From: Cellulophaga baltica
GTDB taxonomy: Bacteria; Bacteroidota; Bacteroidia; Flavobacteriales; Flavobacteriaceae
Assembly: GCF_018861125.1 (NCBI RefSeq)
Contig: NZ_JAHKQN010000013.1
Span: 97,160-161,159, forward strand
DNA: 64,000 bases
Direction of reading: 5' to 3'
Below the pieces are notes generated by a model that had not been told where the DNA came from, made no database searches, and worked only from the letters and a program-made list of their open reading frames with translations. A program made the translations under genes and the position numbers. Of the stretch, positions 13,832 through 27,002 are shown one piece after another; positions within the stretch are counted from its first letter, which is position 1; each line of letters begins with the position of its first letter.

Positions 13832-14734
13832 TTAGTAACTCCACATATCTTGTTCTTTATCACGAATCGTCTCTTTGATACGATCAGATTCTAATAATTG
13901 GAACAATGAGTTATCTGAAATATAATCTTTAATTTCACGATCTCCATAAACGTTATCTTCTTTATAGATTGTTGCATTAAAACGTCTCGCGTTTAACAAC
14001 ATATCAAAAGATATTGGTTGTGCAGAGTTTCTTTGATTAAACACTTTAGCCTCATGAAGCACTTGACGTGCACCTGGATACCAAACCCAAAATAAAGCAA
14101 CTTTATTTTCTTCTTGGTCCATAGACTCATCATCAATAAAGTTAACATCTGGAGCTCTTGGAGCAATACCTAACAAACGATATTTTAATTCACCTTGACG
14201 CTTGTCAAAATACCAAATACCTTTAATTAAGTACTCTTCTAAATCTGCAGCAGTTAAATCTCTTTGATTGATATACTCCGGAGAAACTTGCTCACCAGCA
14301 TTATATTGCTCGTAACCGTAATCAGTAGTATCTGTTTTCTGTAAAGTTGCAGCTAAGTCTGAAAACTTTCTTTTTTCAGTAAAATAAGAATCTACATAGA
14401 TGTCTTTAATTTTACCGTTTTTAATGTTTTTGATTAAAACATCATATAAAGATCTTCTGTCAGAACCTATATCAACAGTATCAATTGGATAATAAAGCGG
14501 GAAATTTACACGCTCATCTAAATCAACAACTTCCCATACAGTTTTAGACCAAAGAATATCTCTGTCATCTACATAACCATATTCTAAAGGAGCATCGTTA
14601 TCCATTTCTATTTGCGCGTCAGTTTTCTTACCGATATCTGCTGGCGTTTTGGCATTTAAAATATTTGCCTGAGCCATCATAGATATAGGTAATAATGCTA
14701 CCGCTCCAATTAATAATACATTTTTCCAATTCAT
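13832..14734 (-). CDS. gliding motility / T9SS protein GldN
   Basis: A 300-residue periplasmic protein, GldN (PorN in Porphyromonas), with a cleavable signal peptide ending near Met-Met-Ala-Gln-Ala. It contains the conserved DR.I.WSK.VWE segment (about residues 57-67) and the central PEYI..RDL....EEYLIKG.WYFDK stretch typical of the family. GldN pairs with the lipoprotein GldK to form the large periplasmic ring of the type IX secretion system under the outer membrane. It is the last gene of gldKLMN, 101 nt after gldM with a hairpin in the gap. Confidence 0.96.
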   Translation of the reverse strand: MNWKNVLLIGAVALLPISMMAQANILNAKTPADIGKKTDAQIEMDNDAPLEYGYVDDRDILWSKTVWEVVDLDERVNFPLYYPIDTVDIGSDRRSLYDVLIKNIKNGKIKDIYVDSYFTEKRKFSDLAATLQKTDTTDYGYEQYNAGEQVSPEYINQRDLTAADLEEYLIKGIWYFDKRQGELKYRLLGIAPRAPDVNFIDDESMDQEENKVALFWVWYPGARQVLHEAKVFNQRNSAQPISFDMLLNARRFNATIYKEDNVYGDREIKDYISDNSLFQLLESDRIKETIRDKEQDMWSY

Positions 14735-14779
14735 TTCTAAAAAATTTATTTGTGTTACACCTTTATAAAATTTGCTACA

Positions 14780-14808
14780 AATCGTTCAGAAGCTTTTTCT
14801 GAACGATT
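14780..14808 (-). other. hairpin in the gldM-gldN gap
   Basis: A perfect 12-bp inverted repeat (AATCGTTCAGAA / TTCTGAACGATT) with a 5-nt loop. On the coding strand there is no T-run after it, so it looks less like a full terminator than like an RNA processing or stabilising element, or a partial attenuator, that sets the gldM to gldN ratio. Confidence 0.7.
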
Positions 14809-14835
14809 CATAACTCATTCAATAAATTTTTCTTA

Positions 14836-16395
14836 CTAGTTTGTAAGTTCAACCACTACTGGAGATACTTTCTTAAGCTTGTAAGATTTATTATTTGTTA
14901 TATAAGCAGCAATATCAAATATTTGTATTGCATCACCACGCTTAGCTCTTTTTAAAGCTGATTTAGCTGGCCCATTTAATTTATTACCTCTAACAACAAC
15001 TGTTGGCTGACCTGGTATTTTAATTTTAAACCCGCTTACTGCAAGATTTAAATCAAAATCGAAATCTTCTAATAAAGCACCAACTGTAGCAATTTCTAGG
15101 TTTTTTCTAGGCATTTTAGCTGTGTTAGTTTCACCTCTAATAGAACCGTTTGGTCTTGGAATATCCTTAATTCTGAATTCAGATCTAGATGATACTGTTT
15201 GACCATCAGGTAATTTACCAGAAGCAGTAATAGTAACCGTTCTTCCTTTTCCTGGCATCATGTTGTATTTACTACCTGATTTTCTAGATAAACCAGCTGC
15301 TGAAGCAGAAACTTTATTATCAGGGATACCTGGGATAGATATAGACATTGGGTTAGCAACACCACGGTAAACAACATTCATTTTGTCAGCTGCAATTAAA
15401 GCTGCATTTGGTTTAGATATAGTTGCAAAAGTATTTTTTACATCCACAGGAACTTCTTTACCATCTTGCATGAAGGTTAAAGTACCAGCAACCTCATGGT
15501 CACCAGGAGCACCTGCTCCAATAAGTAATTTAACTCCACCTGCTTCAAGAACATAATCTTTACCTTCTGTTAAAGCTCTACCATCTAACTTAATATCTGC
15601 CTTTACAGGAGTAGAAGAGTTATCTGTTTTGCTAATGATGATTTTACCATCATACTTCTCACCACTGTAGTAAGCAGACTTTGATCCGAAAAGAGATGTC
15701 TTAAACGTTTTTAAAGAAACTTGACTAGTTAAGTTACCTTCTAACATTGCTTTTAACGCATCTTCTTCAGTTGACTTAATATCAGACTGTAAAGCTGTAA
15801 TTTTAGTTAAAGAAGCGATTAAAGGAAAACCTTCATAGTGATAGTTGATCCAATCTTGCTTAGTCTTATCTCTTTTTTCAACTTTACCGTTAGCATCACC
15901 AGTTTCAAATCTAGCAACTACTGAACCTTTTAATCTTTCTGGTACTAAACCAGATACTTTTGAGCGGTATTCAGATATTCTTTTCATGAATTCTTTACCT
16001 CCAGCCGCTAAGCCTTCGCCTTCAAAGAATTTTTGATCTAAATAATCTGACTTATCCATCACTGTGTAATCAGATGGATCTTCAACACCAGCAGTCATTT
16101 CTTTCTTTAAACCTTCAAGGTAATCATAATACTCTTGAGATAAAGTTTGAACTTGCTGTGCTTTTTTATAATCTTCAGCATACTTTTCTGCGTTTTCAGA
16201 TGCTTTGGTTTCAAGCCCTTCTAAAAATGCTAAGTTATTATCTGACGTCTTCTGGTTAGAAACTTCTAGCTTTTCGTTCATAAGACCGAAAGCAGCTAAA
16301 ACTTCTTTACTCATATTTAATGCCAGCATACAAATGAAAACTAAATACATTAAGTTTACCATTCTTTGCCTTGGTGACTGTTTTCCTCCTGCCAT
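14836..16395 (-). CDS. gliding motility / T9SS motor protein GldM
   Basis: A 519-residue GldM (PorM). A short cytoplasmic N-terminus (GGKQSPRQRMVN) containing the Arg residues that contact GldL is followed by one transmembrane helix (about residues 13-32) and a long periplasmic part of four domains D1-D4, helical first and then beta-rich. It dimerises and, with GldL, forms the proton-driven rotary motor that energises type IX secretion and gliding, reaching up to the GldK-GldN ring. Length matches the family. It is 52 nt downstream of gldL. Confidence 0.96.
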   Translation of the reverse strand: MAGGKQSPRQRMVNLMYLVFICMLALNMSKEVLAAFGLMNEKLEVSNQKTSDNNLAFLEGLETKASENAEKYAEDYKKAQQVQTLSQEYYDYLEGLKKEMTAGVEDPSDYTVMDKSDYLDQKFFEGEGLAAGGKEFMKRISEYRSKVSGLVPERLKGSVVARFETGDANGKVEKRDKTKQDWINYHYEGFPLIASLTKITALQSDIKSTEEDALKAMLEGNLTSQVSLKTFKTSLFGSKSAYYSGEKYDGKIIISKTDNSSTPVKADIKLDGRALTEGKDYVLEAGGVKLLIGAGAPGDHEVAGTLTFMQDGKEVPVDVKNTFATISKPNAALIAADKMNVVYRGVANPMSISIPGIPDNKVSASAAGLSRKSGSKYNMMPGKGRTVTITASGKLPDGQTVSSRSEFRIKDIPRPNGSIRGETNTAKMPRKNLEIATVGALLEDFDFDLNLAVSGFKIKIPGQPTVVVRGNKLNGPAKSALKRAKRGDAIQIFDIAAYITNNKSYKLKKVSPVVVELTN

Positions 16396-16447
16396 GTTTT
16401 TTCGAATTAGATGTTAATAATTTGATTTGGTTTTATCTAATCGATAA

Positions 16448-17104
16448 TTAGTTTTTATTCATTGCAGACAACATACCACCGTAAACTCCATTAAGAGAAG
16501 ATAAGTTTGTTGATAATGACGCCATTTGATCTTTCAATACTGTAGAGTTTTGAACAACCTCTTCGTTAATTGAAGCTTGCTTGCTTGCACTCTCTAATTG
16601 TACTTTGTATAAGCTATTTAAAGATTCCATTTGAGCAGCAGCTTGTACCATTTCATCAGAATACTTACGTGTAGATTCCATTGCATCAACTGTTGGAGCG
16701 ATACCTTTAGCAGCACCTTCAAAGTTTTTAATACTAGAACCTAAGCTTTCCATAAGACTTGCATCAACACCAGCTTCTTTTAATAAGTTATCTAATTTTT
16801 TAGATAAAGATGCTTCGCTTTCTGCAACTTCTTGTTGTACGTTAGCTTGCTTTTTAGCTGTAGCTTCACCACCTGCTAATTCAGGGTATACTAAAGACCA
16901 ATCTAATTCGTCTTCAACTGGTTCAAATGCACTAATTGCAAAAATAAGTGCCTCTGTAATAAGACCAATTGCAAGAAGTACTCCACCATTTAATGGTCCT
17001 AACTCCCAGTGTAATATTTTAAATAATGCACCGATAATTACGATAGATGCTCCAAGGCCATAGGCCATGTTAAAAATTTTCTTTGTTGCTTTTGACTGTG
17101 CCAT
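16448..17104 (-). CDS. gliding motility / T9SS motor protein GldL
   Basis: A 218-residue inner-membrane protein, GldL (PorL). Two N-terminal transmembrane helices lie at about residues 14-30 and 40-60. The charged residues known to matter for proton flow are all present, shifted by two from the commonly cited numbering: Lys29, His32 (in FKILHWE), Glu51 and Glu61. The remainder is a cytoplasmic helical region. It forms a pentamer around the GldM helices. The gene lies between gldK and gldM in the standard order. Confidence 0.97.
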   Translation of the reverse strand: MAQSKATKKIFNMAYGLGASIVIIGALFKILHWELGPLNGGVLLAIGLITEALIFAISAFEPVEDELDWSLVYPELAGGEATAKKQANVQQEVAESEASLSKKLDNLLKEAGVDASLMESLGSSIKNFEGAAKGIAPTVDAMESTRKYSDEMVQAAAQMESLNSLYKVQLESASKQASINEEVVQNSTVLKDQMASLSTNLSSLNGVYGGMLSAMNKN

Positions 17105-17173: not shown

Positions 17174-18538
17174 TTAATTCAAAGGTCTAGATTCTTCCTC
17201 ACCCATGTAATCTTGTACAGTTCTAAAACCGATATAACTACGTGCTGAGTCTTGATATTCATAATCCCTTGTACTTACTTGTAAAAAGTATGCAACATCT
17301 TTCCAAGAACCACCGCGGATAACTTTTCTGGCATTTTGGCCAGAACCACCATTCGGGTTCATTGTTGATACATACTCGTAAGAGTTCGGATCGTAGCTAG
17401 AATCTGTCCATTCAGAAACATTACCAGCCATATTGTATAAATTGTAATCGTTTGGTTCAAATGATTTAGCTTCTACTGTATATAATGCTGTATCGGCTGC
17501 ATAATCACCTCTTTGAGGTTTAAAGTTTGCCATAAAACAACCAGTGTCACTAATTACATATGGTCCACCCCAAGGGTAAGTACCACCTTCAATACCACCT
17601 CTAGCTGCATACTCCCATTCTGCTTCAGTTGGCAATCTAAATTGGTTAACAAATTGTTTACCTGCTGACTTTTGATCGTCATTCTTCAATTTAGTTCTCC
17701 AGTTACAGAATGCTTTAGCTTGTTTCCAGCTAACACCAACTACAGGATAATCGCTGTAAGCATCATGCCAGAAATAATCGTTGTGCATTGGTTCATTATA
17801 AGAATATTCGAAATCTCTAATCCATACTGTTGTATCAGGGTAAATTTCTAATTCTTCTTGTTTGATGAAATCTCTTCTAGTGCCTTTACCGTTTGAACGG
17901 GCAGCCGCTTCAATATCCATCCAAGAGTACTTGTATTTTAATTGAGTTACATCAATAGTACGTTGACCATTATAAGATTCTTCTTCAGGAAGATATAATT
18001 GATCCATTACCTCAACATAATACTCATCTGGGTAATCAGAAGTTTCCCATACTAGATCTTGATCTAAGTCTAATCCTCGACCTTCATAACCAGTTTCACC
18101 TAATCCTGAATAGTTGTCTAACATATATTTATCATATGCAGATAATCTTGTTGTGTCGGCATCTTTAAAAGCGTAATCGCCAATACCTCCATCTTCTGGA
18201 CCAAGACCTAATTCATCAGCCAAAATAGCTAACTTAGTTCTTACTATTGAGTCTCGTACCCATTCTACAAATTGACGATACTCACTGTTTGTAATTTCTG
18301 TATCGTCCATATAGAAAGAGCGTACAGTAACAGTTTTTGTTGGCGCGTTTAGAACTTGAGCTTGATCTTCTTCACTCTTACCCATGATATAAGATCCCTG
18401 CGGGATTAACTCCATACCATAAGGTTTTTCTGGATACCATTTTTTTCCTTGGGCTCCGGTTAGCTCTCCTTTTGTTTTAGATCCGCAACTGCTTAGTAAA
18501 ACAACACACGCTATAGATGATAACAATAGCTTCTTCAT
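17174..18538 (-). CDS. gliding motility / T9SS lipoprotein GldK
   Basis: A 454-residue outer-membrane lipoprotein, GldK (PorK). The signal peptide ends in a lipobox with Cys18 (Leu-Ser-Ser-Cys). The body has the formylglycine-generating-enzyme/SUMF1 fold: the Met-Glu-Leu-Ile-Pro-Gln-Gly-Ser start near residue 42, the FRLPTEAEWEYAARGG block near 315-330, and the NVSEWTDSS and VIRGGSWKD blocks towards the end. In this family the fold is structural, not catalytic. It forms the periplasmic ring with GldN. It is the first gld gene, 112 nt after the arginase-like gene. Confidence 0.97.
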   Translation of the reverse strand: MKKLLLSSIACVVLLSSCGSKTKGELTGAQGKKWYPEKPYGMELIPQGSYIMGKSEEDQAQVLNAPTKTVTVRSFYMDDTEITNSEYRQFVEWVRDSIVRTKLAILADELGLGPEDGGIGDYAFKDADTTRLSAYDKYMLDNYSGLGETGYEGRGLDLDQDLVWETSDYPDEYYVEVMDQLYLPEEESYNGQRTIDVTQLKYKYSWMDIEAAARSNGKGTRRDFIKQEELEIYPDTTVWIRDFEYSYNEPMHNDYFWHDAYSDYPVVGVSWKQAKAFCNWRTKLKNDDQKSAGKQFVNQFRLPTEAEWEYAARGGIEGGTYPWGGPYVISDTGCFMANFKPQRGDYAADTALYTVEAKSFEPNDYNLYNMAGNVSEWTDSSYDPNSYEYVSTMNPNGGSGQNARKVIRGGSWKDVAYFLQVSTRDYEYQDSARSYIGFRTVQDYMGEEESRPLN

Positions 18539-18650
18539 ACTTAGGTTAAATTTCGATTATGTAGTAACTTAAAAAACACATTTATTCACTCTCTAAAACT
18601 TAGTTTTAAACAATTTATTGTGTTAATTGCATTATCCTTTTAATTTTTTA

Positions 18651-19808
18651 TTAATTAAAGCCTTTTTTATAAGCTTTAAACCACCGTTCAGGAATTATTT
18701 GATTACAAGCATCTAAATAATCTTGTTCCGTGCAAGGTAATAACGCTGCTAAATTTGATTTATTATGTGAAGATAAAATACTTGGCACTTCTACCCACCA
18801 TCTATTGGTAAGATTACTTTTATGATAGATTAAATCATCTGCATCAGTCGGAACAATATACTTTGTAAAGTCTTCAGTTTTCACATACGGAGACTCTTTT
18901 ACTCTATAATTATGCCCTTCTATAAAATACCATATAATTTGTGCAATAATTTGGTATGACTGAGGCGTATTATCTGCCTCGTATACACCAAAAATATTTA
19001 CTTTATCACTAATACCTGCATATCTAGCTATCGCGCAAATTTCTTTTCCTGTAAAACCGTTTGGTGAAAAGTTAGCCGACATTGATATTTCACTTGCTTT
19101 TATTGACCTTAAATCGATACTCACAATATTAGCATCTCTTAGAACAGGTTCTGCTAGAGCTATATTTGATGAAATTTCCCCCAACCTATAACTATCAAAA
19201 AACAGACGCTCCATTAAATCTAATTCTTCTTGGGCACAAAAATAACTTTGATAACCAATATTTGAAAAATTAAACAGATTATTAGGTTGATCTGTAATAA
19301 TTCTGCTCATATAAGAATGAGAAGAAATAAGTTCATCGTTATCACCAAAATCGAATCTACTATCAACAGAAACTAAATTAACCATATTCCTAAGGTCATC
19401 AAAAGCTCTGTATGTTGGGTAAGTTATATCTTGAGTTGCACCTATTACAATTGCAATAACATCATCTTCTAACAACTCTGCAACAACTTTTCTTACCACA
19501 AAATAAGTGTCCGTAACAGCTTCACCTTCTTCAATATCACCTAAATCAATAATAGAACTATTCCAATTGCCTGTCATTAGCTTATACAACTGAAGACGAA
19601 TATCAAAAAGGTTAAGTTTTTCTGTTTTTTTCTCAAAGGCATTTCTTGATTCATTTACACCAATAATTGCAAATGATGCTTTGGCCATTTCTGGTAAACC
19701 ATCTTTTGAAGTATGCTTGTGTATTTTATTCCCTAATGCCTGAGCTGGTAGAAGCTCGCAATGTGCTAATAATTTATCATTAACTGGAACTAAAAAATCG
19801 AATGCCAT
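18651..19808 (-). CDS. arginase-fold protein (formimidoylglutamase-like), probably not a standard metallo-ureohydrolase
   Basis: A 385-residue protein with the arginase/agmatinase/formimidoylglutamase fold, usually annotated as formimidoylglutamase in flavobacteria. The three metal-binding motifs can be located but are altered. The GGxH motif reads GATQ (His replaced by Gln126), the DAHxD motif reads DSRFD (149-153, His replaced by Arg151), and the SxDxD motif reads SIDLR (230-234, second Asp replaced by Arg234). Three of six Mn ligands are therefore missing. The following NGFTGKE segment is still family-like. No hut genes are nearby; it lies between topA and gldK, suggesting a different, perhaps non-enzymatic, role. 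Confidence 0.8.
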   Translation of the reverse strand: MAFDFLVPVNDKLLAHCELLPAQALGNKIHKHTSKDGLPEMAKASFAIIGVNESRNAFEKKTEKLNLFDIRLQLYKLMTGNWNSSIIDLGDIEEGEAVTDTYFVVRKVVAELLEDDVIAIVIGATQDITYPTYRAFDDLRNMVNLVSVDSRFDFGDNDELISSHSYMSRIITDQPNNLFNFSNIGYQSYFCAQEELDLMERLFFDSYRLGEISSNIALAEPVLRDANIVSIDLRSIKASEISMSANFSPNGFTGKEICAIARYAGISDKVNIFGVYEADNTPQSYQIIAQIIWYFIEGHNYRVKESPYVKTEDFTKYIVPTDADDLIYHKSNLTNRWWVEVPSILSSHNKSNLAALLPCTEQDYLDACNQIIPERWFKAYKKGFN

Positions 19809-19841
19809 TAAAAAATTACTGTATTAAATTATTATTTAAAA

Positions 19842-19872
19842 AAAGTACATGATTTTGATAACCATGTACTTT
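19842..19872 (-). terminator. terminator after topA
   Basis: A 10-bp stem (AAAGTACATG / CATGTACTTT) with an 11-nt loop. On the minus strand it is followed by a run of seven T. It lies between the topA stop and the arginase-like gene, so topA is transcribed separately from the gld side. Confidence 0.85.
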
Positions 19873-19877
19873 AGAAA

Positions 19878-22394
19878 TTATTTCTTTTTTGTTGCTGTTT
19901 TGGCTTTTGCCTTAGGCTTGGCTTTCGCCCTTGTTTTTTTCTTAGGTGTTTTTTTCTCAATCATATCTTGTGCCTGAGCCAAGGTGATTTTAGTAGCATC
20001 AACATCCTTTGATAATTCTACTTTTATTTTACCTTTTATAACATTGTGTCTTCCCCAACGGGCTTTTTCTACACGTATACCTTCTTCTTTCCAATCGTGA
20101 ATAACCTTATCAATCTCTTTTTGTTTTTTAACTTCAATAAGTTCAACAATATTATCATGAGTAAGATTATCAAAATCGTATTTTTTATTTACATTGATAA
20201 ACATTCCGTTCCATTTAATAAATGGTCCAAAACGCCCAACACCCTTAGTTACCTCAAGGTCTTCATATGTAGCAATTGGCGCATCTGCTTTTTGCTTTGC
20301 AACAATTAACTCAATAGCTCTATCTAACCCAACATCAAAAGCACTTTCACCTTTATCAAGTGAAATAAATTTATCCCCAAATTTTACGTACGGACCAAAA
20401 CGGCCAACATTAGCTAACACTTCTTCACCTTCATACGTTCCCAAATTTCTTGGTAAAGTAAAAAGCTCCATTGCTTCTTCAAACGTAATTGTATTTAAAG
20501 ATTGTGTTGGCAATAAACTTGCAAAAGTTGGTTTTTCTTCTTCTTCAGATGATCCAATTTGCACCATTGGTCCGAATCTACCTAAACGCACTAATACTTG
20601 TCTGCCCGATTTTGGATCTTTACCCAAAATACGTTCTCCACTAGCACGATCAGCATTCTCTTCTACATCTTTTACTTTCGGATGGAAATCTTTATAGAAA
20701 GATTTCATTATTTTTTGCCAATCCTCTTTACCATCAGCAATATCATCAAAATCTTCTTCAACTTTCGCTGTAAAGTTATATTCCATGATACCTGAAAAAT
20801 GACTAACTAAAAAGTCTGTCACAATCATACCGATATCAGTTGGCACTAATTTACCTTTTTCTGAATTTACAGTTTCTGTTAAATCTTTCTCTTTAACAGC
20901 ATCATTTTCAAGAACCAATTGAACATATTTACGCTCAACACCCTCAACGGTACCTTTTTCAACATAACCTCTGTTTTGAACTGTAGAAATTGTTGGCGCA
21001 TAAGTAGATGGTCTACCAATACCAAGTTCTTCTAATTTCTTCACCAAAGATGCTTCAGTAAACCTATACGGAGGTCTAGTGAAACGTTCTGTTGCTGTAA
21101 TATAGTTACTATCTAATGCTTCTCCTTTTTTCATTGCAGGAAGCATTCCTTCTTGTTCTTCTGCTACATCTTCATCATCAAGTCCTTCCATATAAACCTT
21201 AAGGAAGCCATCAAATTTGATTACCTCTCCGTTTGCAGAGAATTCTTCGGTATGACCAGAACAACTGATTTTTACATTTGTACGTTCTAATTGTGCATCA
21301 CTCATTTGAGAAGCTAATGTACGCTTCCAAATAAGTTCGTATAATTTTGTTTGATCACGCTCCAATGAAACAGAATGGCGTTTCATATCTGTAGGCCTAA
21401 TTGCTTCGTGAGCCTCTTGTGCCCCCTTAGACTTACCTACATAATTACGAGAATTACTATATTCTTTCCCGTAGTGTTCTTCAATAGCCTCTTTTGCAGC
21501 ATCTAACGCTTCCTTTGATAAGTTTACACTATCGGTTCTCATGTAAGTAATCAAACCTGCTTCATACAAACGTTGTGCTACTTGCATGGTTCTACCTACT
21601 GAAAAGTATAATTTACGAGATGCTTCTTGTTGTAATGTTGAAGTTGTAAATGGCGCTGCTGGTGATTTTTTCGCTGGTTTTTTATCTAAACTAGCTACTT
21701 CGAAATTTGCTTTTAAATTCTTTTTCAAGAATTCATTTGCAAGTTCCTTAGTTTTAAATGTCTTATTTAATTTTGCTGCAAAAATACTTCCTTCTGCAGT
21801 CTTAAATTGCGCTGTAATTTTAAAAGATGCTTCTGGCGTAAAAGCTTCAATATCTCTTTCTCTTTCAACAATTAAACGCACTGCTACAGATTGTACTCTA
21901 CCAGCTGAAAGTCCTGGTTTAATTTTTTTCCAAAGTACTGGTGATAATTCGTAACCTACTAACCTATCTAAAACACGTCTTGCTTGTTGTGCATTTACAA
22001 GGTCATAATTTATTTCCCTTGGATTTTCAATAGCTTTTTGTATTGCAGACTTAGTAATACTATTGAAAACAATACGTTTAGTTTTCGATTTATCTAAACC
22101 AAGTTCTTGTTCTAAATGCCAAGAAATAGCTTCTCCCTCACGATCCTCATCACTAGCTAGCCATATTGTTTCTGCTTTTTTAGATAAATCTCTTAATTTT
22201 TTTACTAATGCTGCTTTATCTTTACTAACAATATATTTTGCTTCAAAATCATTCTCAACATCTACCCCCAATTCTTTAGAAGGTAAATCTGCGATATGAC
22301 CAAAACTTGATTCCACCTTAAAATCTTTTCCTAGAAATTTTTCAATGGTTTTTGCTTTTGCTGGTGACTCTACGATTACTAAATTCTTTGCCAT
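19878..22394 (-). CDS. DNA topoisomerase I
   Basis: An 838-residue type IA topoisomerase that relaxes negative supercoils. The TOPRIM domain opens with VIVESPAKA (residues 6-14), with the acidic DEDREG motif at about 111-116. The catalytic Tyr is in ITYMRTDS, at about residue 284. The C-terminal third holds three or more topoisomerase C-terminal repeats marked by GRFGP (GRFGPMVQ, GRFGPYVK, GRFGPFIK) instead of zinc fingers, then a Lys/Ala-rich basic tail. Length and layout are usual for Bacteroidota. A TACTTTTG promoter box lies 20 nt upstream and a terminator follows. Confidence 0.97.
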   Translation of the reverse strand: MAKNLVIVESPAKAKTIEKFLGKDFKVESSFGHIADLPSKELGVDVENDFEAKYIVSKDKAALVKKLRDLSKKAETIWLASDEDREGEAISWHLEQELGLDKSKTKRIVFNSITKSAIQKAIENPREINYDLVNAQQARRVLDRLVGYELSPVLWKKIKPGLSAGRVQSVAVRLIVERERDIEAFTPEASFKITAQFKTAEGSIFAAKLNKTFKTKELANEFLKKNLKANFEVASLDKKPAKKSPAAPFTTSTLQQEASRKLYFSVGRTMQVAQRLYEAGLITYMRTDSVNLSKEALDAAKEAIEEHYGKEYSNSRNYVGKSKGAQEAHEAIRPTDMKRHSVSLERDQTKLYELIWKRTLASQMSDAQLERTNVKISCSGHTEEFSANGEVIKFDGFLKVYMEGLDDEDVAEEQEGMLPAMKKGEALDSNYITATERFTRPPYRFTEASLVKKLEELGIGRPSTYAPTISTVQNRGYVEKGTVEGVERKYVQLVLENDAVKEKDLTETVNSEKGKLVPTDIGMIVTDFLVSHFSGIMEYNFTAKVEEDFDDIADGKEDWQKIMKSFYKDFHPKVKDVEENADRASGERILGKDPKSGRQVLVRLGRFGPMVQIGSSEEEEKPTFASLLPTQSLNTITFEEAMELFTLPRNLGTYEGEEVLANVGRFGPYVKFGDKFISLDKGESAFDVGLDRAIELIVAKQKADAPIATYEDLEVTKGVGRFGPFIKWNGMFINVNKKYDFDNLTHDNIVELIEVKKQKEIDKVIHDWKEEGIRVEKARWGRHNVIKGKIKVELSKDVDATKITLAQAQDMIEKKTPKKKTRAKAKPKAKAKTATKKK

Positions 22395-22595: not shown

Positions 22596-23246
22596 TTAAA
22601 ACATTACATATAACGTCGTAACTATCAAGCTTTTATCATCATGTTCAATTTCTAAAACTCTCGCTTCAGAAACGGTTTTTAAATTGAAAGGTTCTTCTGT
22701 TAGCAATACGCCACTTTTCTTTTTTAACCGAATACCTTGGCCTGTAACTATATCTATATTTGGCTTAAACTCGGCATTAGGAATATGCTCTGTTACAATC
22801 AAATATTTATATTTCTTAAATTGTTTAACCAATTCTAAAATTTCATTATTAGACAGGTGTTGCATTACCTGACGAACTATCGCACAATCAGCAATAGGCA
22901 ATTCATTCATACAAATATCAAGGCATTTAAAAGCCAAGTTATCCCACTTAAATTTTTCTTTATTTCTTTCAATTAGGCTATCAACCACGTCAACCGCTAT
23001 ATAGCTACTGGTGTGTGCGACTAACTTTTCTCCCACATTAAAATCACCACACCCCAAATCACAAACTGATATAGGTTTTCTAAAAGATTGAAAAAACTGT
23101 ATCATCACATTTATATAAGGTTCTACAATTTTATTATCATGCGAACCATCACCCGAATAAAAATCATTCTCTTTTCCGCCCCACATATTATTCTCATAAA
23201 TCTGATGCATCACGGCTTTTGTTGACCAGCGTTTTTTTTTAGACAT
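22596..23246 (-). CDS. class I SAM-dependent methyltransferase
   Basis: A 216-residue cytoplasmic protein with a Rossmann-like methyltransferase core. The SAM-binding motif I VCDLGCGDFNVG lies at about residues 61-72, followed by the acidic strand end AVDVVDS. The very basic start (SKKKRWSTKAV) and a W.GKENDFYSGDGSHD segment precede the core. The substrate is not recognisable. It lies downstream of the TonB/DUF4374 genes but is separated from them by a terminator, so it is probably its own transcript. Confidence 0.8.
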   Translation of the reverse strand: MSKKKRWSTKAVMHQIYENNMWGGKENDFYSGDGSHDNKIVEPYINVMIQFFQSFRKPISVCDLGCGDFNVGEKLVAHTSSYIAVDVVDSLIERNKEKFKWDNLAFKCLDICMNELPIADCAIVRQVMQHLSNNEILELVKQFKKYKYLIVTEHIPNAEFKPNIDIVTGQGIRLKKKSGVLLTEEPFNLKTVSEARVLEIEHDDKSLIVTTLYVMF

Positions 23247-23344: not shown

Positions 23345-24589
23345 TTATAGACCTAAAATAGCCTTTGCATAATTACCATCTATATCAGCACCTTCAACTA
23401 CTGTTGCGTTTTCTACATCTATAACATATACCCCTGAATAATCAGAATTACTCACCCCTACGTAAGCCGTATTATCTTCAACAAAGACAACACCATTCCA
23501 GCCACCGCCACTAAGTTCCATTTCTCCCGACAACTCAGTAAATGAACCTTCATAAATATCTAAAATTCCAAAAGATAACACAGGACTCTCTGAGTTAGGA
23601 GAATATGTTGACCATGCTTCACTATCATCAGATAAAATTCTAACTACCGCTTTACCATCACCAACATAGTATAAATCATTTAATTTATAACCACTGCTGA
23701 TAGTTTCAAAATCTACATAATAACTATCATCAAAATCAGCCTCTCCACTATTAATTCTTAAAAGACCAGAATTTACTGTAGGAACAGGATACCAACCACA
23801 AGCTAAAGAAGAACTAGACATTACATAAACATCGCCATTTTCATCTTCAACAATTCCATATTCAGAATAATAACGTCCAATATCTGCAATTCTATCATCA
23901 GTAATTGTATTTTGCAACTCTAAACCAGGGTAAGAGTACACAGCTACTTTAGCTTTATTTTCCTCAATAACATTCCCATCTAAATCAACCAAATAGTAGG
24001 AAATGAAAAGATAATCTCCAGCCACTTTTGCACCAGAAGGCATTGAATAAATTTCTTCACCAGTCTCAGAATCTGTATAATTACCTAATTCTGTTTCAAC
24101 AGTTGAAGTAATAGACATTACATCAGTATCTATAACATAAATATCCCTACTACCTGCTGAATACCAAGGCGATCCAATTGCTACTAACGTACTTTCATCA
24201 ACAACATCATAAGCATAAACACCTAAACTTGTAGTAACAGATGATCCTTCTGACAAATTACCATTTTCGTCTTCTGCATAACTTGTTAATGCAGAAGAAA
24301 CAATACTAAATAATTGATCTTCACCTTGAATATAACTTGCCCACGCTAGTTGTTCAAAACCGTTGTTAACAGGTGAAACTACACCTTCAGACAAGCTTTC
24401 AGCTACACTTAAATAATCTGCACCATCTGAACCATATTCAATACCTACGTAATAACTTGAACCTTCTGTTGTAGCTTCTTCATCCTCTACACTTACAGAA
24501 TCAGAATCATCCTCACTACACTGAATAAATAACAGTGATGACAATAATATAACACTCATTTTTAAACTAAAATTAATTTTCCCTTTCAT
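23345..24589 (-). CDS. DUF4374 lipoprotein, probable partner of the TonB receptor
   Basis: A 414-residue lipoprotein with a lipobox at Cys24 (Leu-Phe-Ile-Gln-Cys) followed by an acidic Ser/Asp/Glu linker of the kind that favours surface exposure in Bacteroidota. The rest is a beta-rich, propeller-like region with repeated YVID and YSGVYVIDVENATV-like strands, matching the DUF4374 family. Members of this family are encoded with TonB receptors for siderophores or similar compounds; from memory the siderophore-binding XusB of Bacteroides is of this kind. It follows the receptor gene by 11 nt. The ligand is not known. Confidence 0.8.
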   Translation of the reverse strand: MKGKINFSLKMSVILLSSLLFIQCSEDDSDSVSVEDEEATTEGSSYYVGIEYGSDGADYLSVAESLSEGVVSPVNNGFEQLAWASYIQGEDQLFSIVSSALTSYAEDENGNLSEGSSVTTSLGVYAYDVVDESTLVAIGSPWYSAGSRDIYVIDTDVMSITSTVETELGNYTDSETGEEIYSMPSGAKVAGDYLFISYYLVDLDGNVIEENKAKVAVYSYPGLELQNTITDDRIADIGRYYSEYGIVEDENGDVYVMSSSSLACGWYPVPTVNSGLLRINSGEADFDDSYYVDFETISSGYKLNDLYYVGDGKAVVRILSDDSEAWSTYSPNSESPVLSFGILDIYEGSFTELSGEMELSGGGWNGVVFVEDNTAYVGVSNSDYSGVYVIDVENATVVEGADIDGNYAKAILGL

Positions 24590-24600
24590 TTTTGATTTAT

Positions 24601-26967
24601 TTAATTTATAAAATATCTAAACTTAAAATTCATTGATCTTCTAGGATTTTGCTGAAATAAGTTATCATAAGTTACCCTATTGAAAACATTTAAAACTCCA
24701 AAAGAAAAATTATACTTTTGGTTCTTCAAACTATAAACAAAATCTAAATCTGTTGTTGTTTGTGATGGTATTACATACTTTGTGTCAGAAAAGCCTAAAT
24801 TGCTCCATCTATAATCAAAATCATGGACATAATTTTGATTAGCAGTAACAGAGAAATTATCTTCTTTATTTAACAAATTGCCTTTATTATAAGACAAGGT
24901 TATATTACCATATAAATAAGGCTCATTTGGCACTCTTTCTTTATATAGAGAATTTTCACCTCCAGCAATAAACTCTTGATTGTTAACCTGATTAACATAG
25001 GTTCCAGCAATATTTAAATTGATTTTATTATCGTAATTGTAATTCGCAGAAAAATCTAAACCAGTTGTATAAACATCTTCTAAATTTTCATAAACTATAG
25101 TTGTTCCTTGTCTTTGTGCAAAAATGAAGTTCTCTGAATCTCTAATAAAGCCATTTACAGAAAGTATAATATTATTTTTATCTACTGCAGTCTTAAATAT
25201 ACCGCCCAAATTAAAATTATTACTTTCTTCTGGTTCTAGATATGGGTTTGCATCATACCCAACACCATCTCCATATAACTCAATTACATCAGGAAACCTT
25301 ACCGCATGCTCAAAAGAACCTTTAAATTGAAAATTATTTAAAAAATAGGAAAGCGCAAAACCATAACCAAAGTGACCATAATCTGTAGAGGTATCTATAA
25401 ATTCATCCCCTGAATAATTCGTATCTGTACTGTTCTGAGTATATTTGTAATACTTCCCAAAAAATGTGCTTTTTAACTCATCATCAAAAAAAGCACTTGT
25501 ATAACTACTTGCTAAAACTTGTTTATTAAAAGAGATAGGGTCACTAAATCTAGTACTATTTTCTGTGTTAAATGGATCACTACCCTCTAAATCTAAAAAA
25601 TTCAAATTATAATTAAATGCCAAATTACTAGTCTCTGAAAAAGCATAACCAATATTAAAATTTCCTAATAAATTTCTAGAATCTAACGTTAAATCAGTTT
25701 GCCTAGCATCACCTTCTCCCGTTCCATCTTCTTCTAATGTACTATTACCAAACCAATCATAAACATCCTCACTAATATTAGTATATCTATATTCTGAATC
25801 AACATAAACTATGTAAGAATCGAGACTTAAAGCCTCAATAAAAAAATGATTTTTAGAATAATTAAATGTAGAGATAAGGTTATTTTCTTTTTCTAAAACT
25901 TCCCCATAAGGTTGCTCACTATCTCCTATAGCAGTTTCAGGCTGTTGCACCTCGTCATAATTTTCAGAATACATAAAACCTACCATTAGCTCATCTGCAA
26001 AACTAGTATTTGTAAATCCTAGATCCAACCATCCCATTTTAGACTCATAAGCATCATAAAAATGCTCTACTTCAGTAGTAAAATCATCGTAATTTCCTGT
26101 GGTTGTATTCAATAAATTAACATCTATTTTATAATTATTATCTGAATAATTATAAAATGATTTTACACGAGCTGTAAATCCGGTTTTATCATCTCTAAAT
26201 TGAGCGTTCAATGAACCTATATGCGTATTAAATGACCCGTAACTATAAGAAGCATCTAAAAAAGATTTTTGACTTTTATTAGTCGTTAAGTTTACGGCTC
26301 CCCCTAAAGCATCAGACGAGAGGTGAATTGGAACAACACCTTTATAAACCTCTATTTGTTCTATTAAATTTGAAGGAAAGTTGTTTAGACTTAATGAAGA
26401 ACCAAAAAACTCCATTGGGATACCGTCTATAAACACTCTAACTTGACTACCAGACAAACCATTTAAAGACATTACCGCATCTTCTCCTAGTCCACCAGAT
26501 TGCCTAATATTAACACCTGGGACTTTATTTAAAATAGCATTTGCATTTACTGATAGGTTTTGATATATTTTACTTTCAATAACTTCAACCGCATAAGCCT
26601 CCTCACGTATTAATTCTGCCTCTGTTTTTCCAATTAAAACAACACCTTCTAATTGATTAATTTGTTCTTGTAATATTAGATGAATTGGAACACCATCATT
26701 CAACACTATATTTTTTTGCAAATCAACATAACCACCCGCTCTTACTTTAAGTGTAAACTCTTTTAAAGAAGAGCCGAAAGAAAACTCACCATTGTAATCA
26801 GACAAAACAACATCAGCATTATTCAAATAAACATATGCCCCCATCACTGGTTCTTCATTTGTATCTAAAACAACACCCTCAATTTGTTGTGAAAACGAGT
26901 TTAAACAAAAAAAAAGAAACATTAAAAATACTAAATGACCAAAATACAATTTCCTAACTAACTTCAT
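24601..26967 (-). CDS. TonB-dependent outer membrane receptor
   Basis: A receptor of about 788 residues from the ATG of MKLVRKLYF; a GTG two codons upstream is also possible. The order is signal peptide, carboxypeptidase-like regulatory beta-sandwich domain (GVVLDTNEEPVMGAYV, about residues 30-110), plug domain with NKVPGVNIRQSGGLGEDA and GSQVRVFIDGIPM, then a 22-strand barrel ending in an aromatic terminus. It imports a bulky ligand using TonB energy. The DUF4374 lipoprotein that follows suggests a siderophore or other iron-type ligand, but the sequence does not prove this. Its promoter is well formed. Confidence 0.92.
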   Translation of the reverse strand: MKLVRKLYFGHLVFLMFLFFCLNSFSQQIEGVVLDTNEEPVMGAYVYLNNADVVLSDYNGEFSFGSSLKEFTLKVRAGGYVDLQKNIVLNDGVPIHLILQEQINQLEGVVLIGKTEAELIREEAYAVEVIESKIYQNLSVNANAILNKVPGVNIRQSGGLGEDAVMSLNGLSGSQVRVFIDGIPMEFFGSSLSLNNFPSNLIEQIEVYKGVVPIHLSSDALGGAVNLTTNKSQKSFLDASYSYGSFNTHIGSLNAQFRDDKTGFTARVKSFYNYSDNNYKIDVNLLNTTTGNYDDFTTEVEHFYDAYESKMGWLDLGFTNTSFADELMVGFMYSENYDEVQQPETAIGDSEQPYGEVLEKENNLISTFNYSKNHFFIEALSLDSYIVYVDSEYRYTNISEDVYDWFGNSTLEEDGTGEGDARQTDLTLDSRNLLGNFNIGYAFSETSNLAFNYNLNFLDLEGSDPFNTENSTRFSDPISFNKQVLASSYTSAFFDDELKSTFFGKYYKYTQNSTDTNYSGDEFIDTSTDYGHFGYGFALSYFLNNFQFKGSFEHAVRFPDVIELYGDGVGYDANPYLEPEESNNFNLGGIFKTAVDKNNIILSVNGFIRDSENFIFAQRQGTTIVYENLEDVYTTGLDFSANYNYDNKINLNIAGTYVNQVNNQEFIAGGENSLYKERVPNEPYLYGNITLSYNKGNLLNKEDNFSVTANQNYVHDFDYRWSNLGFSDTKYVIPSQTTTDLDFVYSLKNQKYNFSFGVLNVFNRVTYDNLFQQNPRRSMNFKFRYFIN

Positions 26968-27002
26968 GATCACTATTTATATTAAGTCTAAATAAATTTT
27001 GT

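Follow-up and report, generated by a model that had tools for sequence, protein, structure and literature searches.

The arginase-fold protein encoded between topA and gldK in Cellulophaga baltica, which we call ARGL, belongs to a real and widespread pseudo-ureohydrolase family. Judged from the residues at the ligand positions, the second metal site of the arginase fold is missing throughout our sample and the first is kept in most lineages. We give about an even chance to the reading that ARGL is a binding or regulatory protein and not a ureohydrolase, holds at most one metal, is not part of the T9SS and is in most cases made together with topoisomerase I. The features of the window, that is, the whole stretch of 64,000 nucleotides that was analyzed, are given in Table 1.

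Table 1. Positions in the window of ARGL, its motifs and its neighbors
Feature	Position	Strand	Remark
topA, DNA topoisomerase I	19878..22394	-	Upstream neighbor, nearly abutting ARGL in most relatives
Terminator-like hairpin (13 pairs) and T run	19838..19872	-	In the topA-ARGL gap of this genome
ARGL, arginase-fold protein, 385 aa	18651..19808	-	Core approximately residues 14-305
GATQ, residues 123-126	19431..19442	-	GGxH with His changed to Gln126, a first-metal ligand position
DSRFD, residues 149-153	19350..19364	-	Asp149 and Asp153 retained; His changed to Arg151, a second-metal ligand position
SIDLR, residues 230-234	19107..19121	-	Asp232 retained; second Asp changed to Arg234, a second-metal ligand position
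C-terminal module, approximately residues 306-385 (RWW, PC, DY, PERW)	18654..18893	-	Family specific, missing from 13 canonical rows
ARGL-gldK gap, 112 bases	18539..18650	-	Promoter-like motif in this gap in many relatives
gldK, T9SS ring lipoprotein	17174..18538	-	First gene of gldKLMN
gldL, gldM, gldN	13832..17104	-

Altered ligands of a conserved protein

ARGL scored 34.3 bits with PF00491 (arginase/ureohydrolase superfamily; curated cut-off, 22), and an arginase alpha/beta fold was predicted for it; the six-ligand two-metal feature of PF00491 enzymes is absent. Its ligand pattern is Q-D-R-D-D-R, with three of the six Mn ligands altered. The sequence-only reading had placed the three changed ligands in the three motifs of Table 1, and both placement and numbering were correct: profile alignments, with 13 canonical rows as controls, upheld the motifs and ruled out misplacement.

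In arginase sites the first metal is named MnA and the second MnB. We take the last Asp of DxHxD to be a first-metal ligand and its first Asp to bridge both metals. According to section 19 of PMC6988801, the His of the first motif binds the first metal and the first Asp of SxDxD contacts both metals, while the second metal is held by the other Asp of SxDxD together with the His and the first Asp of DxHxD. By this ligand scheme, the first-metal set of the window's ARGL consists of Q126, D149, D153, and D232, with one ligand altered to Gln, while both residues that serve the second metal only are gone and replaced by Arg. With Arg at both 151 and 234, the residues make a metal in the window's ARGL itself doubtful.

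Where it could be measured, ARGL is under strong selection as a whole protein, with a median dN/dS of 0.037, calculated over the 25 closest of the 110 candidate pairs that the named loci offered; the value was 0.030 for topA and for gldK and 0.094 for gldL. Decay into a pseudogene was ruled out by dN/dS and also by the lack of internal stops in the window-sequence matches with E below 1e-17. One TGA was found inside a longer ARGL profile match in G007.

Metal-ligand columns and family-specific residues

A search with the window sequence gave matches in 136 of 395 phylum genomes, and every match with E below 1e-17 lay in the window's class. Six loci were read from the 46 matching genomes outside the class (L091, L092, and L109-L112), all of which had the canonical pattern HDHDDD, NDHDDD, or HDHNDD and no C-terminal module. 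A 24-row ARGL profile matched 366 of the 395 class genomes sampled, a total in which weak matches may include canonical enzymes, and 29 genomes were unmatched. ARGL is a family of the class in which the window falls, which is Bacteroidia of GTDB to judge from the named relatives. The wide comparison comprised 103 ARGL members from 68 family codes and 13 canonical rows, with L263 and L264 reassigned from the family to this control set. A second set, the 80 named loci, is the best 80 of at least 589 candidates and consists of close kin, 3 of them titled Bacteroidetes bacterium and the remainder mostly from Flavobacteriaceae genera.

The second-metal pair H151 and D234 occurred together in none of the 103 members (H151 alone in 4 and D234 alone in 5), and the two-metal centre is gone, as the sequence-only reading had held. 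Position 151 carried 17 different letters (R in 28 members, K in 23, S in 9, T in 6, and H in 4, besides others), and position 234 carried 11 (S in 53, G in 12, N in 11, T in 8, A in 6, D in 5, and R in 2, besides others). At position 126, Q (63 members), H (15), and N (10) together accounted for 88 of 103, and Asp was present at 149, 153, and 232 in 89, 85, and 89 members, respectively. The first-metal set (Q, H, or N at 126 with D149, D153, and D232) was complete in 78 of 103 members, and its parts were lost jointly (six Fisher tests, p 5e-8 to 5e-5, not corrected for kinship). The earlier argument that the introduced Arg residues speak against a metal centre is thus partly supported: family-wide loss is limited to the ligands of the second metal, and the first-metal set is mostly intact and covaries.

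Conservation of Gln/Arg/Arg beside gldK, which the same reading had proposed as a check, was not found: QDRDDR occurred in just 29 of the 80 named loci (best 80 of at least 589), and the six such loci viewed singly were all among relatives at least 69% identical to the window. In the other 51 named loci of this best-80 set, R or K was present at 151 in 50 and N, S, or T at 234 in 41. A positive residue stood at 151 or 234 in 52 of the 103 members; only the window and f1_L093 among these rows had one at both positions, and K/K or K/R was seen in four further named loci (again best 80 of at least 589). The idea that Gln/Arg/Arg forms a new active site shared by the family is therefore rejected, and the alignments mark it as a local state of the window's relatives.

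A tree was built from residues 40-305 of 98 family and 13 canonical rows, with the six ligand columns excluded and five poorly aligned rows (four f5 and one f99) left out. On this tree, a quick search with support under 80 for 47 of 108 inner branches and of only 69 for the split between family and canonical rows, the minimum number of changes was 53 at 151, 37 at 234, and 28 at 126, compared with 9 at 149, 12 at 153, 8 at 232, and 0 at R224, W337, and C359; MnA status switched about 12 times. The MnB site, and with it two-metal hydrolysis, was probably lost before the ARGL family radiated. The MnA ligands are kept in most lineages, where a single cation or a small ligand is probably still bound in the pocket, although the retained aspartates could serve folding instead. 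For the clade of the window, we think it probable that the empty MnB place is taken up by Arg151 and Arg234, paired with the aspartates that remain. Three loci of family code f2 with the window's gene order (L079, L081, and L084) have lost all three MnA aspartates (pattern NSxSND) and have an altered RWW motif in a full-length ORF, and so make a natural last stage of such decay.

The most constant parts of ARGL are E220-P-x-x-R224, W293, and the C-terminal RWW, PC-DY, and PERW module. Where the MnA set was broken (25 rows), W337, W293, and Q187 were kept in all 25, E220 in 24, and C359 and R224 in 23. Since the most constant parts are family specific and mostly kept where the pocket decayed, a binding or regulatory role is favored. 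The broken-pocket rows were relaxed elsewhere, with D127 kept in 11, R55 in 12, C258 in 17, P373 in 20, and W338 in 21 of 25, compared with 72, 71, 74, 77, and 78 of the 78 MnA-intact rows, which shows that pocket loss was not purely local. The module is present as a single copy, with no other copy found in the window's own genome; a stretch of 88 residues modeled for it by AlphaFold2 reached a pLDDT of 68, and Foldseek gave no match in the PDB with E below 1.

E277, which we take to be a substrate residue in arginases, tracked the pocket (59 of 78 MnA-intact rows versus 5 of 25 broken rows, p 1.7e-6), which favors a site where a ligand or substrate is still bound in earnest. ARGL might thus be a one-metal enzyme in which an MnA ion, E277, and the family-specific residues carry out a different hydrolysis or a lyase reaction. 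The intact and covarying MnA set agrees with this, and the ligand of the first motif can evidently vary: 3 of the 13 canonical rows have Asn in place of its His, and PMC6988801 describes a characterized arginase with measured kinetics that has Cys there. However, some 12 switches of the pocket against none at R224, W337, and C359 would be odd for an enzyme site, and the positive residues in half of the members, with both Arg in the window, would disfavor a metal. We regard a one-metal enzyme as a serious minority possibility. The sequence-only reading had offered a pseudoenzyme or a family with another chemistry, and its interpretation was partly supported.

By fold and score, HutG (TIGR01227; 3m1r, 4mxr/4myf) is the nearest known relative. 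Formiminoglutamases were the best structural matches of ARGL, and no NCBIfam model scored higher than hutG for any of the 8 ARGL proteins that were scanned, as might be expected of a true formimidoylglutamase or another two-metal ureohydrolase. However, ARGL scored 39.3 bits against an equivalog cut-off of 229.15, and the seven relatives scanned, with 36 to 98 bits, were all below it as well. Unlike HutG, ARGL is without the MnB ligands and has its C-terminal module beyond the end of the 307-position hutG model. No match to urocanase (hutU, TIGR01228) was found in the window's genome (G000, 99.48% complete); most genomes of the class do have HutU (106 of 119), so this argument is limited to this genome and a few like it. 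The one other PF00491 protein of the genome is the agmatinase SpeB, encoded on another contig, which scored 222 bits with TIGR01230 (cut-off, 174) and, in contrast to ARGL of the same superfamily, has all six ligands. By known chemistry, ARGL is not a formimidoylglutamase, and we hold that reading, in its wider form too, to be extremely improbable; the warning that this label would mislead was well founded.

Gene order, spacing, and the T9SS

The order topA, ARGL, gldKLMN described in the sequence-only reading was confirmed and is widespread in relatives; topA, gldKLMN, and porP were identified by profile scans, and miaB, ntrC, and lptE were named by eye. Each of the 80 named loci (best 80 of at least 589) had gldK after ARGL, and topA flanked ARGL opposite gldK in 78 of them. 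Across family codes, topA was directly upstream of ARGL in 36 of 65 testable ones and gldK lay at most 2.8 kb downstream in 36 of 64; among the 67 with usable context, 33 had both neighbors and 28 had neither. The order often continued past topA into the genes that we named miaB, ntrC, and lptE, which makes topA-ARGL-gldK part of an old gene block. In the window, a 216-amino-acid protein without an NCBIfam match at E 1e-10 is encoded just upstream of topA (22596-23246, minus strand), beyond which, by eye, a TonB-dependent receptor-like gene and then a lipoprotein-like gene occupy 23345-26973 (minus strand).

Spacing sets ARGL closer to topA than to gldK. In the named loci (best 80 of at least 589; 7 of 80 topA and 2 of 80 gldK gaps unmeasured, ARGL assumed to start at the first ATG in its ORF), the topA-ARGL gap had a median of 5 bases and was 30 or less in 56 of 73, while the ARGL-gldK gap had a median of 152.5 bases and was 80 or more in 78 of 78; in relatives it broadly spanned 110 to 270 bases. 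The trend was weaker in other families, with a median topA gap of 27 bases (30 or less in 23 of 45) and a median downstream gap of 134 bases (80 or more in 57 of 71). A motif derived from the Bacteroidota-type promoter consensus was found, in a form loosened after viewing the gaps, in 52 of 78 ARGL-gldK gaps (6.9 when shuffled) and in 4 of 73 topA-ARGL gaps of the same best-80 set, whereas the stricter first form was found in 6 of 80 (1.45 when shuffled). Four loci (L147, L148, L150, and L174) share a similar-looking stretch in the ARGL-gldK gap that resembles a gldKLMN promoter. These spacings suggest that ARGL is made together with topoisomerase I in most relatives. In the window, the 13-pair terminator-like hairpin after topA means that ARGL may have its own transcript here; by our own criterion, terminator-like sites were found in 2 of 78 relatives, a set in which most of these gaps span very few bases.

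ARGL could instead be an accessory factor of the T9SS or of gliding that is adjacent to gldK for that reason, a tie that the sequence-only reading had raised. The adjacency on which it was based is real and widespread, all 4 loci scanned outside the Flavobacteriaceae, out of 11 inspected, had a PorP/SprF gene separating ARGL from gldK, and the genes co-occur, the ARGL profile being matched in nearly as many class genomes as GldM (378 of 395). However, GldM is near-universal in the class, so that this co-occurrence says little. The topA side is equally conserved, genes beyond it are often conserved too, and although ARGL adjoins gldKLMN on the same strand, the spacing in relatives points to the unit of topA, with a long region, often containing a promoter-like motif, ahead of gldK. 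In several family codes, two consecutive gldN-like ORFs were seen (L193, L199, L200, L201, L205, and L225).

Further markers were looked for in three GldM-negative carriers of ARGL (G359, G446, and G548), with six further ones left out. No GldM, GldL, or SprA was found in the drafts G359 (99% complete) and G446 (95%), in which ARGL is present at G359:C32:92745-93923 (in L054) and G446:C84:471-1625. G548 had no GldM match, yet SprA was present, so its GldM gap probably reflects incompleteness. Conversely, G347, G394, and G190 had GldM, GldL, and SprA but no ARGL match. Some lineages may use ARGL in the T9SS, but this is not what defines its function, and we consider it unlikely that ARGL is such an accessory factor; adjacency to gldK alone is unsafe ground for assigning one.

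The open-licence literature yielded no paper that joins gldK with formimidoylglutamase or with an upstream topA in Flavobacterium johnsoniae, none on the locus tag Fjoh_1852, and none on a pseudoenzyme arginase in Bacteroidetes or a formimidoylglutamase in Flavobacterium. Among the matches listed for the T9SS and arginase, neither arginase nor formiminoglutamase appeared. One open-licence paper, on a duck pathogen, matched both gldK and arginase. The terms arginase, topA, and Fjoh_18 are absent from PMC12635249, as are formimino, topoisomerase, and arginase from PMC5879114.

Other arginase-fold proteins and the role of ARGL

Lost ligands in an arginase fold have precedents. The T. brucei arginase-like protein TbARG (4RHI) reportedly evolved without the binuclear Mn cluster, as the title of Hai et al. 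2015 has it; both proteins are arginase-like, but TbARG is eukaryotic, and we liken the two by that title only. TbARG was not among the 50 VIA matches listed, which is uninformative. A closer parallel is MetCb (MfmB), the noncatalytic subunit of metformin hydrolase, which shares with ARGL the arginase fold and lost metal ligands and is a structural match, metformin hydrolase chains being among the best Foldseek matches. PMC11271267 describes MetCb as altered at five of the six ligands and as having an extended C-terminal loop; MetCa shows activity only if coexpressed with MetCb. By analogy, ARGL might hold no metal and serve as partner subunit to a catalytic ureohydrolase, for which the canonical agmatinase of its own genome would be a candidate. 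However, MetCb partners an adjacent catalytic subunit, whereas ARGL has none, keeps the first-metal set in most members, and has the sole other PF00491 gene of its genome on another contig. G099 has a single PF00491 match, with an E value of 2.9e-24 against 4.1e-24 for its ARGL alone, so that no canonical partner was found there. We therefore think a partner subunit very improbable.

The reading of ARGL as a binding or regulatory protein thus combines a second metal site lost family-wide with a first site kept in most lineages, near-invariant family-specific parts, and a weaker inference on the T9SS, which are its additions to the sequence-only reading. A tentative variant, to which we give limited weight, is that ARGL is a half-site metalloprotein, with MnA kept and MnB given up, that acts as a one-metal catalyst or a metal-gated binder made with topoisomerase I. 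If true, such a protein would be found across most of the class, half of its members having an Arg or Lys side chain instead of the second metal, and ARGL would be the mirror image of the histone deacetylases, in which this fold retains the opposite metal position. The best hutG score invites a misleading histidine-degradation label for a widespread and strongly constrained protein. Overall, the drifting second-metal site, the covarying first-metal site, and the near-invariant family parts of ARGL form a natural series for the repurposing of an enzyme fold.
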